Shown here piece by piece: positions 11,278 to 52,681 of a stretch of DNA of 64,000 bases. The notes under the pieces were generated by a model that saw only the letters and a list, made by a program, of their open reading frames with translations, was not told the origin of the DNA and made no database searches. Made by a program: the position numbers and the translations under genes. The first letter of the stretch is position 1. Every line of letters starts with the position of its first letter. The stretch spans positions 1 through 64,000 of the forward strand of contig JACFMQ010000003.1 in the NCBI GenBank assembly GCA_019455325.1, read 5' to 3'. Origin of the DNA: Rhodocyclaceae bacterium (GTDB taxonomy: Bacteria; Pseudomonadota; Gammaproteobacteria; Burkholderiales; Rhodocyclaceae).

Positions 11278-12225
11278 ATGAGCAGTATTGGTGCAGTAGG
11301 CAGCAACAACGCGATGATGTACGGCGCACAGATGCGCCAGCGGCCCGACCCGTCGGCGATGGCCGAGAAGCTGTTCAGCGCGCTCGACACCGACAGCCAG
11401 GGCTACATCGAGCAGGCCGATCTGGAAACGGCCTTCGGCAAGATCGGCACCGACGCGAACGGCGCCGCCGAGCTGTTCGCGCAGCTCGACGGCGACGGCG
11501 ACGGCAAGGTGACGCAGGACGAGTTCAGCAGCGCCATGCAGGCGGCGGCCGACGAACTCGACGCGCAGTTCGGCGCCATGCGCATGCAGGGCGGCATGCC
11601 GCCCCCGCCGCCGCCCGCCGACGACGCCGGCTTCACGCAGGAGGAGCTGGCAAGCCAGTTGAGCGAGATCGGCGACAGCGACAGCCAGCGCGCCGACCTG
11701 ATCTCGAACATCCTCGCCAACTTCGAGGCGGCGGACGCCGACGGCGACGGCAAGGTCAGCTTCCAGGAGGCGCTCGCCTACGACGAGGAGAATCGCGCCC
11801 AGAGCAGCGGCGCCGCGTCGGCGACCGCCGAACCCGGCGAGCAGTTCGGCGCCATGCGCGCAGCGGGCGGCATGCCCCCGCCGCCGCCGTCCGCCGGCGA
11901 CGCCGGCTTCACGCAGGAAGAACTGGAAAGCCAGTTGAGCGAGATCGGCGACGGCGACAGCCAGCGCGCCGGGCTGATCTCGAACATCGTCGCCAACTTC
12001 GAGGCGGCAGATGCCGACGGCGACGGCAAGGTCAGCTTCCAGGAGGCGCACGCCTACGACGAGGAGAACCGCGCCCAGAACGCCGGCTCCACGTCGACCG
12101 CCGCCTCGGCGGCCGACACGAACGGCGAGGCGAAGCTGCTGATGCAGTTGGCGCGGCTGATCGAAGCCTACGGCCTCGGCGACGACGGCGGCACGCGCTC
12201 CGCGACGCTCTCGATCGCCGCCTGA
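11278..12225 (+). CDS. EF-hand calcium-binding protein with tandem repeats
   Basis: This 315-residue acidic protein has four good EF-hand loops: DTDSQGYIEQAD (about 37-48), DGDGDGKVTQDE (71-82) and DADGDGKVSFQE twice (153-164 and 245-256). Residues of about 97-175 and 189-267 are a near-identical tandem duplication, each starting QFGAMR, with a GGMPPPPP stretch, a helix pair and one canonical loop. There is no signal peptide or membrane helix. The second ATG is chosen because AAGGA lies seven bases upstream. It resembles XopAW-like EF-hand proteins. It is divergent from the cpxR-like gene and shares its boxes, so it is a likely regulon member. Confidence 0.85.
   Translation: MSSIGAVGSNNAMMYGAQMRQRPDPSAMAEKLFSALDTDSQGYIEQADLETAFGKIGTDANGAAELFAQLDGDGDGKVTQDEFSSAMQAAADELDAQFGAMRMQGGMPPPPPPADDAGFTQEELASQLSEIGDSDSQRADLISNILANFEAADADGDGKVSFQEALAYDEENRAQSSGAASATAEPGEQFGAMRAAGGMPPPPPSAGDAGFTQEELESQLSEIGDGDSQRAGLISNIVANFEAADADGDGKVSFQEAHAYDEENRAQNAGSTSTAASAADTNGEAKLLMQLARLIEAYGLGDDGGTRSATLSIAA
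11565..11801 (+). repeat. Tandem repeat unit 1 in the EF-hand gene
   Basis: This 237-bp unit recurs 276 bp downstream (11841-12077) in the same frame with high identity. It encodes the proline tract, a helix pair and one EF-hand loop. Units are separated by a 39-bp Ala/Ser/Thr-rich linker. Confidence 0.8.
11841..12077 (+). repeat. Tandem repeat unit 2 in the EF-hand gene
   Basis: Second copy of the in-frame 237-bp unit. Differences from unit 1 are scattered substitutions, for example ALAYDEEN versus AHAYDEEN. This fits an internal duplication that is still recent enough for slippage or recombination. Confidence 0.8.
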
Positions 12226-36131: not shown

Positions 36132-37112
36132 TCAGGCGCCGGCGCCAGCGAGCGCGCGCCGCAGGCGGTCGGCGACGGCCTGCCATGCCGGCGTTTCCGG
36201 GATCGCCTCGACGACGATCAGGTCGACGCCGGCGTGGTCGAGTTCGCGCAGCGCCGCGTAGAGGTCGTGGGCGTAGCCGGCCGGTTGGGCCGGCAGCATC
36301 TTCCAGACGTGCGGCGAGTCCGACCCCGGCGACGAATGCGCCAGCACGCCGCAGCGGCGGCCGTCGCGGCGCATGGCGTCGAGGAATTCCGGCAGGCGCG
36401 CGCCGTCGACGCGGCGCATCGGCGCCGCCGGCGCGTAGTGCGCTTCCAGCGTGCCCGAGGCGCGCGGCGCGGCGGCGGTCGGCGCCGCCGGCAGCGCGCC
36501 GCAGACGGCCTCGATGGCCGACGGCGTGACGTGGCCGGGGCGCAGCAGCACCGGCAGGCCGGAGGAGAGGTCGATGATCGTCGATTCGATGCCGACCGCG
36601 CACGGCCCGCCGTCGAGCACCAGCGCGACGGCGTCGCCGAGCTCCTCGCGCACGTGTTCGGCGGTGGTCGGGCTGATGCGGCCGAAGCGGTTGGCCGACG
36701 GTGCGGCGATGCCGCCGCTGCCGCCGGCGGCGGCGAAGGCGCGCAGAAGGTCGAGCGCGACCGGATGCCCCGGCACGCGCAGGCCGACGGTGTCCTGGCC
36801 GCCGGTGACGGCGTCGGGCACGCCGGCGGCGCGCTTGAGGATCAGCGTCAGCGGGCCGGGCCAGAACGCCTCGGCGAGTTCGAAGGCGAGGTCGGGAACC
36901 TCGCGCGCCCAGCGCTCCAGATGCGCGGCGCCGGGGATGTGCACGATCAGCGGATGGTCGGCCGGACGCCCCTTGGCGGCGAAGATCTTGGCCACGGCCG
37001 CCGGGTTGGCGGCGTCGGCGCCGAGGCCGTAGACCGTTTCGGTCGGGATGCCGACCAGTTCGCCGGCCTTCAGCAGTTCGACGGCGCGGGCGATTTCCGC
37101 CTTGTCACTCAT
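36132..37112 (-). CDS. tsaC: L-threonylcarbamoyladenylate synthase (Sua5/TsaC)
   Basis: This 326-residue enzyme is the long Sua5 type: an N-terminal YrdC domain (about 8-195; VGIPTETVYGLGADAANPAA, IFAAKGRPADHPLIVHI) plus a C-terminal Sua5 domain (about 215-322). It makes threonylcarbamoyl-AMP for t6A modification at position 37 of ANN-decoding tRNAs. The ATG follows GGAGG with six bases between. That Shine-Dalgarno lies in a stem of the intercistronic repeat shared with iorB, so translation may be modulated. It is the last gene of a minus-strand cluster after purK. Confidence 0.92.
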   Translation of the reverse strand: MSDKAEIARAVELLKAGELVGIPTETVYGLGADAANPAAVAKIFAAKGRPADHPLIVHIPGAAHLERWAREVPDLAFELAEAFWPGPLTLILKRAAGVPDAVTGGQDTVGLRVPGHPVALDLLRAFAAAGGSGGIAAPSANRFGRISPTTAEHVREELGDAVALVLDGGPCAVGIESTIIDLSSGLPVLLRPGHVTPSAIEAVCGALPAAPTAAAPRASGTLEAHYAPAAPMRRVDGARLPEFLDAMRRDGRRCGVLAHSSPGSDSPHVWKMLPAQPAGYAHDLYAALRELDHAGVDLIVVEAIPETPAWQAVADRLRRALAGAGA

Positions 37113-37115
37113 CCC

Positions 37116-37227
37116 GCGCCTCCGCCGGGCCGCCCCAAGGAGGCGCCGCCGGGAACCGAAGTGGTCGCTGCAAGCGATCCACGAACACCGATCACCCCCT
37201 TCCCGGGGAAGGGGGTTGGGGGGAAGG
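37116..37227 (-). repeat. Intercistronic three-hairpin repeat, copy A (purK-tsaC)
   Basis: Read on the minus strand the element has three potential hairpins: CCCCCTTCCC/GGGGAAGGGGG at 37195-37215, overlapping the purK end; a middle hairpin GTGGTCGCT/AGCGATCCAC with one bulge; and GCGCCTCC (37139-37146) pairing GGAGGCGC (37116-37123) around a 15-nt loop. The last stem contains the GGAGG ribosome-binding site of tsaC. The first and last blocks are shared with copy B at 40552-40660. Confidence 0.8.
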
Positions 37228-38466
37228 CTCGTCGACGATGCCGATGGCGGCGCGGGCTTCCATGGCGATCTGCACCGCCCGGTCGAAGTCGCCGTCGATC
37301 ACCGTGAAGTGCGCCATCTTGCGGCCGTGGCGCGCGTGGTGCTTGCCGTAGAAGTGCAGCTTGAGGTTCGGGAACGCGGCGAGCTTCGTCCAGTCCGGCT
37401 CGCGGTAGCGCTCGCCGGTGTCGGTTTTTTCGAACCACAGGTCGCCGAGGATGTTCACCATCACCGCCGCCGAATGCGCGCGCGGCTCGCCCAGCGGCAG
37501 GCCGCACAGCGCGCGCACCTGCTGCTCGTACTGGCTGGCGACGCAGGCGTCGACGGTGTAGTGGCCGCTGTTGTGCGGCCGCGGCGCCATCTCGTTCACG
37601 TAGAGCTCGCCGCGGCTGACGAAAAATTCGACGCCGAGCGTGCCGACGTAGCCGAGCTTCTCGGCGATGCGCTCGGCGTATTCGGCGGCGCTGTCGCGCA
37701 GGCAGGCCGAGGCGCGCGCCGGCGCGATGGAGACGTCGAGGATGCCCTTGCGGTGGCTGTTCTCGGCGGTCGGAAAACATTTGACGACGCCGTTCTCGTC
37801 GCGCGCGAGCACCACCGAAACCTCGTAGTCGAGGCTGAGCCTGCGTTCGAGGATGCACACCTCGCCGCCAAAGGCGCGGAAGGCGGCGAGCGCCTCGTCG
37901 CGGTCGTTCGCCGCCGCCTGCCCCTTGCCGTCGTAGCCGAAGCGGGCGACCTTGAGGATGCCGGGGAAGAGGCCGGCGTCGGCGTTGCGGATGTCGTCTT
38001 CCGCGTGCACCGGCGCGAAGGCGCCGTGCGGCAGGCCGTTGTCGCGCAGGAAGGTCTTCTCGGCGATGCGGTTCTGGCACACCGCCACGGCCGCCGCCGA
38101 CGGCCGCACCGGGATGAACTTGGCGAGGTAGTCGAGCGTGTCCGCCGGCACGTTCTCGAACTCGGTGGTAATTGCGGCGCAGCCCTGCGCCAGTTCGTCG
38201 AGCGCGGCGTAGTCGTCGTAGGCGGCCGGCAGGTGGCGATCGGCGATGCGGCCGGCCGGGCTATGCGGATCCGGGTCGAGCACCCAGACCTTGTAGCCCA
38301 TCTCGTGCGCGGCGGCGACGAAGAAGCGGCCGAGCTGGCCGCCGCCGAGCATGCCCAGCGTTGCCGGAGGCAACACTGGGCTGTTAGGAGCGAGGAGCGA
38401 GGAGTGAGGAGAAATCTCTCCGGCATCCGTCGCACACGCGCTGCTTTTCAACTCCTCACTCCTCAC
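37192..38466 (-). CDS. purK: 5-(carboxyamino)imidazole ribonucleotide synthase PurK
   Basis: This 424-residue ATP-grasp enzyme converts AIR to N5-CAIR in purine synthesis, coupled with PurE. The core begins LPPATLGMLGGGQLGRFF; ATP-grasp motifs include KVARFGYDGKGQ and NEMAPRPHNSGHYT. Both ends are unusual. The GTG chosen adds about 30 residues (MRSEELKSSACATDAGE) encoded by a GAGGAG repeat, with AGGAG upstream, while a GTG at 38376 would give the normal-length start. The last residues PSPQPPSPGRG come from the intercistronic repeat. It follows purE closely. Confidence 0.9.
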   Translation of the reverse strand: MRSEELKSSACATDAGEISPHSSLLAPNSPVLPPATLGMLGGGQLGRFFVAAAHEMGYKVWVLDPDPHSPAGRIADRHLPAAYDDYAALDELAQGCAAITTEFENVPADTLDYLAKFIPVRPSAAAVAVCQNRIAEKTFLRDNGLPHGAFAPVHAEDDIRNADAGLFPGILKVARFGYDGKGQAAANDRDEALAAFRAFGGEVCILERRLSLDYEVSVVLARDENGVVKCFPTAENSHRKGILDVSIAPARASACLRDSAAEYAERIAEKLGYVGTLGVEFFVSRGELYVNEMAPRPHNSGHYTVDACVASQYEQQVRALCGLPLGEPRAHSAAVMVNILGDLWFEKTDTGERYREPDWTKLAAFPNLKLHFYGKHHARHGRKMAHFTVIDGDFDRAVQIAMEARAAIGIVDEPSPQPPSPGRG

Positions 38467-39915: not shown

Positions 39916-40551
39916 TCAGGCGAGCGCTTCCGCCCGCGCGTCCTGCGTCTTCTGCGCCTCGGCGGCGGCGGCGCGGCCGGCGGCGAAGGCCTGGCGGTTC
40001 ATCTCGATGACCTTCTCGCCCTTGCGGGCAAAGCGCTTGAGCACGCACTGTTCGAGCACGTCGGCGGAGAACGGCAGGTGGTCGGCGATGGCGCCGAGCA
40101 TCACCGTGTTGCCGAGGCGGATGTCGCCCAGGCCGTTGGCGATGGCCGAGGCGTCGAAGGAGTAGACGCGGGCGCCCGAACCGCGCATCTCGCCGACCGG
40201 GTCGGCCGGGTATTCGAACAGGCCCAGCTCGACCACCGGCGGCGCCAGATTGCCGGTGTTGATCAGCGCCAGCGCGTCCGGCCGCATCATGTGCCGCCAG
40301 CGCATGCCCTCGGCCGCCTCGAAGGCGAGCAGGATGTGCGCGCTGCCCGGCGCGATCTGCGGCGAGAGCACCTTCGGCCCGAAGCGCAGGTGCGAGGAGA
40401 CGACGCCGCCGCGCTGCGCCATGCCGGCGACCTCGGTCTTCTTCACGTCGTGGCCGAGCGCGATGGCCGCTTCGGCGAGGATTTCGGTGGCGGTCATGAC
40501 GCCCTGGCCGCCGACGCCGACGACGAGGATGTTGGTGATGTTGTCGCTCAT
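39916..40551 (-). CDS. iorB: Indolepyruvate ferredoxin oxidoreductase beta subunit
   Basis: This 211-residue gamma-type domain protein (ILVVGVGGQGVMTATEILAE, KTEVAGMAQRGGVVSSHLRF) is the small subunit of aryl-pyruvate:ferredoxin oxidoreductase. It combines with IorA to oxidise indolepyruvate, phenylpyruvate or hydroxyphenylpyruvate to the aryl-acetyl-CoA with ferredoxin as acceptor. The ATG follows the repeat-borne GGAGGCAGC, where the Shine-Dalgarno is part of a potential 9-bp stem starting one base before the start codon. Confidence 0.93.
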   Translation of the reverse strand: MSDNITNILVVGVGGQGVMTATEILAEAAIALGHDVKKTEVAGMAQRGGVVSSHLRFGPKVLSPQIAPGSAHILLAFEAAEGMRWRHMMRPDALALINTGNLAPPVVELGLFEYPADPVGEMRGSGARVYSFDASAIANGLGDIRLGNTVMLGAIADHLPFSADVLEQCVLKRFARKGEKVIEMNRQAFAAGRAAAAEAQKTQDARAEALA

Positions 40552-40660
40552 GCTGCCTCCGCCGGGCCGCCCCAAGGAGGCAGCATCGTATTGAATGAAA
40601 GCCGCGCATGCGGCTGCACCGTTGTCGCCCCCTTCCTCGGGAAGGGGGTTGGGGGGAAGG
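40552..40660 (-). repeat. Intercistronic three-hairpin repeat, copy B (iorA-iorB)
   Basis: It has the same order as copy A on the minus strand: CCCCCTTCCTCGGGAAGGGGG (40628-40648), a middle AGCCGC-GCAT-GCGGCT hairpin, and a 9-bp stem GCTGCCTCC/GGAGGCAGC (40552-40560 with 40576-40584) around the identical 15-nt loop. The outer pairs of the last stem differ from copy A on both sides, so pairing is kept. The Shine-Dalgarno of iorB lies in this stem. Confidence 0.8.
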
Positions 40661-40669
40661 TTCTCATAC

Positions 40670-50021: not shown

Positions 50022-50030
50022 ATCCGCGTC

Positions 50031-50097
50031 CCCCAACCCATCATTCCACCGGACCTGCGCGAAAAGCCGCGCAGGCCGGTGAATTCAAACGTTATGC
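50031..50097 (+). other. attC site 1
   Basis: A 67-bp site runs from CCCCAAC to GTTATGC. Its arms CACCGG-A-CCTGCGCG and CGCGCAGGCCGGTG pair with one unpaired A, the extrahelical base typical of attC, around an AAAAGC tip. It is almost identical in its inner 50 bp to attC 3. Recombination would cut G|TT at 50091/50092. Confidence 0.88.
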
Positions 50098-52601: not shown

Positions 52602-52614
52602 GCCAAGATGCGAC

Positions 52615-52681
52615 GCCCAACCCATCATTCCACCGGACCTGCGCGAAAAGCCGCGCAGGCCGGTGAATTCAGACGTTGAGA
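52615..52681 (+). other. attC site 3
   Basis: A 67-bp site runs from GCCCAAC to GTTGAGA. Its first box with flank (GACGCCCAAC) is the perfect complement of GTTGGGCGTC at the start of its cassette. The body is nearly identical to attC 1. The cut point G|TT is at 52675/52676, after which non-cassette DNA begins. Confidence 0.88.

Follow-up and report, generated by a model that had tools for sequence, protein, structure and literature searches.

Correia/NEMIS, RUP, BOX, ERIC and MITE-like repeats are short, structured and mostly non-coding sequences, which are intergenic and often transcribed together with genes. Several of them carry defined terminal inverted repeats or use TA targets. For Betaproteobacteria, a dispersed repeat named BRE (Beta-proteobacterial Repeat Element) was described as a GC-rich intergenic sequence of about 90 bp (Hot et al. 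2011; PMC3110155). According to the available parts of that paper, BRE is often arranged in tandem (75-91 bp) and is variable in Bordetella, its mobility being inferred and no function proposed; it was found in Comamonadaceae and, a single time, in Azoarcus EbN1, and one copy lies beside lexA in three Bordetella species. From Bordetella an intergenic and structured repeat of 117 bp, Bor-1 of the SLS family, is also described, with 196 hits in B. bronchiseptica in the portion of the report at hand (Cozzuto et al. 2008; PMC2267715).

The window analysed here is a 64,000-nt stretch of Rhodocyclaceae DNA (contig JACFMQ010000003.1). Between purK and tsaC it carries an element, copy A, that we consider probably to be a BRE-like, apparently non-autonomous mobile repeat inserted at the stop/start junction of the two genes. 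The three minus-strand hairpins that the original prediction had placed in this gap are all present, and the features of the locus are as follows.

37115 to 37227, minus strand: element copy A, the whole three-hairpin repeat (match to covariance model R2 at E 1.8e-13; purK-tsaC empty in G002, G003 and G006)
37195 to 37215, minus strand: hairpin 1 (CCCCCTTCCCCGGGAAGGGGG), within the purK frame (helix 1 covaries, n=37 copies)
37192 to 37194, minus strand: TGA now ending purK, from the element
37161 to 37182, minus strand: hairpin 2 (GTGGATCGCTTGCAGCGACCAC; double changes at 6 of 6 pairs of helix 2)
37116 to 37146, minus strand: hairpin 3, a covarying stem round a conserved apical part
37124 to 37138, minus strand: conserved apical core TTGGGGCGGCCCGGC, near-invariant between copies
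37119 to 37123, minus strand: GGAGG, the tsaC Shine-Dalgarno (SD) sequence, in the 3' arm of hairpin 3 (predicted probability of GGAG being unpaired, 0.20; locus L034)
37108 to 37113, minus strand: right target copy GATGAG, which contains the tsaC ATG
37228 to 37233, minus strand: left target copy, today GACGAG
37192 to 38466, minus strand: purK, lengthened into the element (NCBIfam)
36132 to 37112, minus strand: tsaC, L-threonylcarbamoyladenylate synthase (NCBIfam)

Hairpin 3 of copy A consists of an 8-bp GCGCCTCC/GGAGGCGC stem with additional inner pairs, and the GGAGG on its 3' side is six bases from the tsaC ATG (37112), exactly as had been claimed. The odd PSPQPPSPGRG tail of PurK is likewise real: hairpin 1 is read through by the protein, this tail is translated from the element, and the C-terminal end GIVDEPSPQPPSPGRG is followed by the TGA just behind the hairpin, purK thus ending inside the element. 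PurK, the threonylcarbamoyladenylate synthase and the beta subunit of indolepyruvate oxidoreductase were assigned by NCBIfam above cut-off, whereas IorA was the best NCBIfam match yet stayed under its cut-off. The folding energy of copy A was unremarkable for such GC-rich DNA (z -1.5; 20 of 200 shuffles were as stable) and was dropped as evidence. What stands above chance is the combination of copies, covariation and flanking RTGA. Beyond the original prediction, the analysis added the conserved apical loop of hairpin 3, copies in the opposite orientation and empty sites.

The same arrangement had been predicted at iorA-iorB, where a second copy was found.

40552 to 40660, minus strand: second element copy, iorA-iorB, with the GGAGGCAGC arm before the iorB ATG (model R2, E 4.7e-20; empty sites in G003, G006 and G001)
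40663 to 40667, minus strand: left target copy ATGAG, iorA-iorB
40547 to 40551, minus strand: right target copy ATGAG, at the iorB start

Elsewhere in the window, two 68-nt direct repeats (50026-50093 and 52610-52677; 96% identical) both contain a palindrome-like stretch, CGGACCTGCGCG...CGCGCAGGCCGG, and a 276-nt tandem repeat (88% identical) occupies 11527-12078.

The element is a dispersed repeat of about 110 nt with three hairpins. Within the own genome, blast of copy A gave six places at E <1e-5, copy A itself counted; a covariance model of hairpin 3 trained on ten copies gave 28 matches at E <0.03, and a whole-element model made from 37 copies gave nine at E <1e-6. Copies occur in both orientations and also in tandem. 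Hairpin 3 is common to three forms, namely type A, the form of the window copies, type B, with the left module CCCCCACGC, and the homogeneous subfamily b, with the loop TTCGGGCGGCCGGGC. Longer forms with additional internal hairpins were also observed (L274, L275, L277, L300, L054 and L055), in which no inserted gene was seen by eye; at recN a longer form in G006 corresponds to the short form in the own genome.

Matches at E <=0.001 were detected in 18 of the 41 genomes searched, all 18 being among the 25 genomes of the own family, and in none of the 16 genomes outside it. An even sample of the class, searched like the former set with stricter filters, gave matches at E <=1e-5 in 2 of 143 genomes, the own one and one of the same order. 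By exact search for the loop in named genomes, at least 120 stretches were obtained, and the titles among those listed are betaproteobacterial or generic MAG labels except for L142 and L067. The latter is a loop match in a MAG labelled Gammaproteobacteria, for which binning errors are possible. The exact loop match L142, in a MAG labelled Hyphomicrobiales and thus outside Betaproteobacteria, represents either transfer or a binning error. A search for plasmid copies gave two Burkholderia records with a 27-nt match.

The stems had been expected to covary, and all three do. In the ten-copy set of hairpin 3, 93.7% of cells are paired, and both sides have changed in 29. For the three hairpins of 37 type-A copies, most of them chosen by the ten-copy model that favours hairpin 3 pairing, 95.2% of cells pair, with double changes at 18 of 29 pairs; the cells changed on both sides number 169, whereas shuffles gave 52 and slid controls no more than 36. 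The model that chose the copies did not include hairpins 1 and 2. Since this model favours pairing of hairpin 3, copies found by the loop only are the fairer test of that hairpin. The at least 120 stretches gave 134 such matches, of which 131 were used, three being too near an end; a stem of at least six pairs, with shifts of up to two bases permitted, was present in 88 of the 131, as against 7% when the right arms were shuffled between copies. An earlier loop-only set, from 80 of the at least 120 stretches, had such a stem in 66% of 88 copies. The apical part, TTGGG-GCGG-CCCGG, is near-invariant and the arms are free in sequence.

Comparison of orthologous junctions indicated how the copies arrived. 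At purK-tsaC the site is empty in G002, G003 and G006 and filled in the own genome (G000), in G001 and in the more distant G007; what precedes tsaC in G004 and G005 is, as far as readable, not purK. The flanks in the own genome are ...GACGAG on the left and GGGATGAG on the right. None of the six congeners has the element at metX-metW; their junction reads ATGAC, GAGACATGACGGAA or near it, whereas the own genome reads ATGAC, element, GTGACGG. In G007, of a more distant genus, an element nevertheless lies at metX-metW in the same orientation (L336), representing either recurrent insertion at one site or loss. Upstream of ispE the element is again absent in six of six congeners, the site reading GCGCCATGAGCGAC in G006 and ATGAGCGCC..., element, GTGAGCGAT in the own genome. 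The iorA-iorB junction is empty in G003, G006 and G001, filled in G000 and G005 with ATGAG on both sides, and occupied by unrelated inserts in G002 (L354) and G004 (L355). Less clean is trpB-trpA, where ATGAC stands at either end of the own copy and relatives (G001 among them) are without the element; these appear too diverged for the ancestral site to be read. Other palindromic inserts, of CTCTGCG-, CTTCGTG- and CACAGAG-type, were observed at iorA-iorB (L354, L355) and at trpB-trpA (L367, G005), and these operon junctions thus take more than one repeat family.

Sites common to several species, such as purK-tsaC (G000, G001 and G007) and iorA-iorB (G000 and G005), would also be expected of an immobile structured RNA, intergenic since ancestral times and passed down with its neighbouring genes. 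Given six of six congeners without the element both at metX-metW and upstream of ispE, as well as the tandem copies and both orientations, we find this explanation scarcely credible.

As read from filled and empty sites, the element inserts at RTGA stop/start junctions, with the target on both sides. RTGA in the same orientation, no more than about 12 nt from both ends, was detected for 23 of 37 type-A copies and for 1 of 185 control windows shifted outward. The other 14 copies include copy A, which fails because its left target copy, now decayed, reads ACGA. By reading, each of the 13 close subfamily b copies lies between two RTGA motifs; the 12 copies compared in detail have one orientation relative to genes, L049 reads alike, and the GA of the hairpin-side RTGA doubles as arm sequence. 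The two sides often differ in their first base (ATGA left, GTGA right), for which reason the sequence actually duplicated may be TGA or TGAN; its length, as judged from such flanks, may be 3 to 5 nt or longer. The RTGA bias could also reflect survival instead of targeting. Like a MITE, the element is a short, non-coding insert flanked by a duplicated target; inspection by eye revealed no clear terminal inverted repeats. Along subfamily b (L042-L056) the upstream junction is ATGA and the downstream gene often has a GTG start (7 of the 12 shown). The metW and ispE genes also start with GTG, where the empty sites in G006 have ATG.

The three empty purK-tsaC sites lack GGAGGCGC, indicating that the GGAGG-bearing arm came with the element. 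This finding bears on another account of the paired arms, in which fold-back copying (template switching), upon insertion or later, turns whatever sequence flanks the loop into a palindrome, and the arms pair without selection. Differences in the arms from copy to copy, combined with frequently good pairing, would fit such copying, as would two local observations: at L037 (own genome, C21:98670), which adjoins an apparent terminator, the arms TTTTCATC/GATGAAAA repeat the flanking TTTTTCAT, and in the G006 sense set arm identity is 0.44 against 0.55 for the rest (3 pairs from 3 copies, one of type B). The idea taken from L037, that arms are copied from the target, is out for copy A, its arm being missing from all three empty sites. 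Nor are the arms hypervariable relative to the rest in the largest within-genome set, G016 antisense, where 36 pairs gave 0.70 identity for arms and 0.66 for the left module. Hairpins 1 and 2, distant from the end, covary as well, and altogether we judge fold-back copying to be very improbable.

The original prediction had asked whether copies lie before start codons with GGAGG, and many copies do lie at starts. GGAG close to a start is expected of any gene. Arms were compared: from 151 cores pairing at 5 or more of 7 positions, 142 were classed and nine dropped. A further 20, among the 142, lacked a clear neighbour on the right and were excluded, and the resulting mixed sample had GGAG in 36 of 50 arms facing a near start and in 4 of the 72 remaining classed copies. 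The strand of the neighbour was assigned by a simple codon-composition score with assumed base frequencies. For model-found copies of the own family the contrast was 32 of 35 against 3 of 30. Among loop-only copies it was 4 of 15 against 1 of 42 for 80 of the at least 120 stretches, and 4 of 23 against 1 of 77 (p 0.0095) for the stretches listed, from whose 131 copies 7 too short and 24 ambiguous ones were left out. The weaker signal in loop-only copies indicates that an SD-bearing arm characterises the own family, whereas most copies elsewhere lack it. In reversed copies the opposite end carries GGGGGGAAGG, or AGGAGGGT in subfamily b, a few bases upstream of the start, and these copies appear to use an SD there. 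The arms in Bordetella genomosp. 4 are T-rich (GTTTTTGCC/GGCAAAAAA) beside a GC-rich stem; such a terminator-like sequence suggests a terminator function. Of the alternatives first offered, a selfish repeat that happens to supply ribosome-binding sites is well supported by the empty sites, RTGA, the many copies and the element-borne SD; "happens to" looks too weak for the own family (32 of 35 against 3 of 30), the link being much weaker for loop-only copies (4 of 23 against 1 of 77).

The other alternative was a portable translational control module, that is, a switch in which a protein, an RNA or temperature acts through the conserved loop to gate the SD of the next gene. Folding models predict sequestration of the SD: for 40 sense copies the predicted probability of the SD being unpaired has a median of 0.02 and a mean of 0.14, copy A standing at 0.20, and hairpin 3 averages -22.5 kcal/mol. 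For 16 reversed copies the median is 0.39, on a loose pattern with a few doubtful cases. The buried SD and the near-invariant loop would suit a switch, and tsaC, ksgA, gltD and trpA downstream presumably need expression, so that something would have to open or bypass the stem. The element at iorA-iorB is, in addition, better conserved than fourfold sites (100 of 109 bases kept against 82 of 120; p 1.3e-5). At the three other orthologous pairs, purK-tsaC, gltD and ackA, however, constraint did not differ significantly from that of fourfold sites, recN as the fifth pair being left out because G006 has the longer form. Over the four pairs, 123 of 132 hairpin 3 positions are identical, and 569 of 707 fourfold sites.

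Against gating stands that pairing is equally good when the arm contains no SD, with 7.79 pairs of 8 without and 7.64 with SD for model-found copies, and 6.94 (117 copies without) and 7.14 (7 copies with) for loop-only copies among the matches listed. Gating is thus unlikely to be the reason for the hairpin; burial of the SD looks like a predicted side effect, and the hairpin most simply helps the element to move or persist. The named downstream genes are also unrelated in pathway, and the element belongs to no Rfam family: above the gathering threshold nothing was detected in the window except tRNA and nothing in six related loci, the element itself giving sub-threshold matches only. We therefore regard the switch as unlikely; a regulator that works via the loop is conceivable but lacks support, and of the proposed control module the hidden SD stands as a prediction.

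Returning to the mobile repeat, a RAYT partner (PF01797, Y1_Tnp) was considered as the mover. No RAYT match at E <=1e-5 was found in G000, G006 or G012 (35 element matches), while RAYT is present in 14 of 25 genomes, including G007 (35 element matches), the richest genome, G016, being outside that search. RAYT as a partner is not supported, the copy-rich G000 and G012 giving no match at that threshold and G007 having both.

We propose that a putative recombinase recognises the folded hairpin through its invariant loop, in which case the stem may drift as long as pairing holds. With RTGA duplicated, the upstream gene would usually keep its stop and the downstream gene its start. In the own family, an SD would face outward at each end, GGAGG in the arm and GGGGGGAAGG or AGGAGGGT at the other, and insertion into an operon would be tolerated in either direction. 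Stop-start translational coupling would be lost upon insertion. In the sense orientation, the new SD would be enclosed by a hairpin of some -22 kcal/mol, so that initiation should be tuned or reduced.

More tentatively, and with less confidence than for copy A itself, these properties may define a class of mobile element: a hairpin recognised through an invariant loop, with free paired arms, RTGA targets, outward SDs at both ends in the own family, entry into operons either way with both genes left translatable, and arms adapted to context (SD in operons, U-tract in terminator-like Bordetella copies). If the reading of the element as an inserting, BRE-like repeat is right, insertions have turned coupled gene pairs of Betaproteobacteria into separately initiated ones, and each insertion, leaving a hairpin on or near an SD, is a natural experiment in the rewiring of translation by mobile DNA. 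It also raises the question of which enzyme moves an element whose end is variable in sequence and constant in fold.

With respect to known systems, the element differs in sequence from Correia/NEMIS, RUP, BOX and ERIC, its target being RTGA and the sequence of its terminal arm free. REP/BIME sequences associated with RAYT are palindromic, extragenic and of high copy number like the element, but neither the GTAG nor the CGTC tag of the families in the available text (PMC3733652) was noticed in it. Among the titles and abstracts listed in further literature searches, none describes RTGA targeting or supplied SDs. Bor-1 resembles the element as an intergenic structured repeat of Bordetella and, compared by its partly available description (PMC2267715), may be the same repeat.

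BRE is closer still. The accessible text of PMC3110155 does not contain the terms "target site", "inverted", "Shine-Dalgarno", "hairpin" or "duplication", and a search of the open literature for BRE names gave, besides that paper, one other, mentioning bprJ2. In Bordetella genomosp. 4 the loop model gave 39 matches at E <=0.1, and its tandem pairs are spaced by 75-79 bp, which falls within the 75-91 bp given for BRE in the accessible text (PMC3110155). A LexA motif was found at 0 of 30 loci taken from these 39 matches, all in this one other species. Five of the seven genera in Table 2 of that paper (Bordetella, Rhodoferax, Polaromonas, Acidovorax and Delftia), as far as the paper is available, are among the at least 120 loop stretches listed. 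Unlike the Bordetella copies, which carry the GCCCCCACGC module, the window copy is of type A with a different left module. Compared by description and not by sequence, with the published account available in part, the element likely belongs to BRE, with which it agrees in length, tandem habit and hosts. A repeat that appears BRE-like, and to which the available 2011 text assigned no function, thereby gains a target, a structure and an operon lifestyle.
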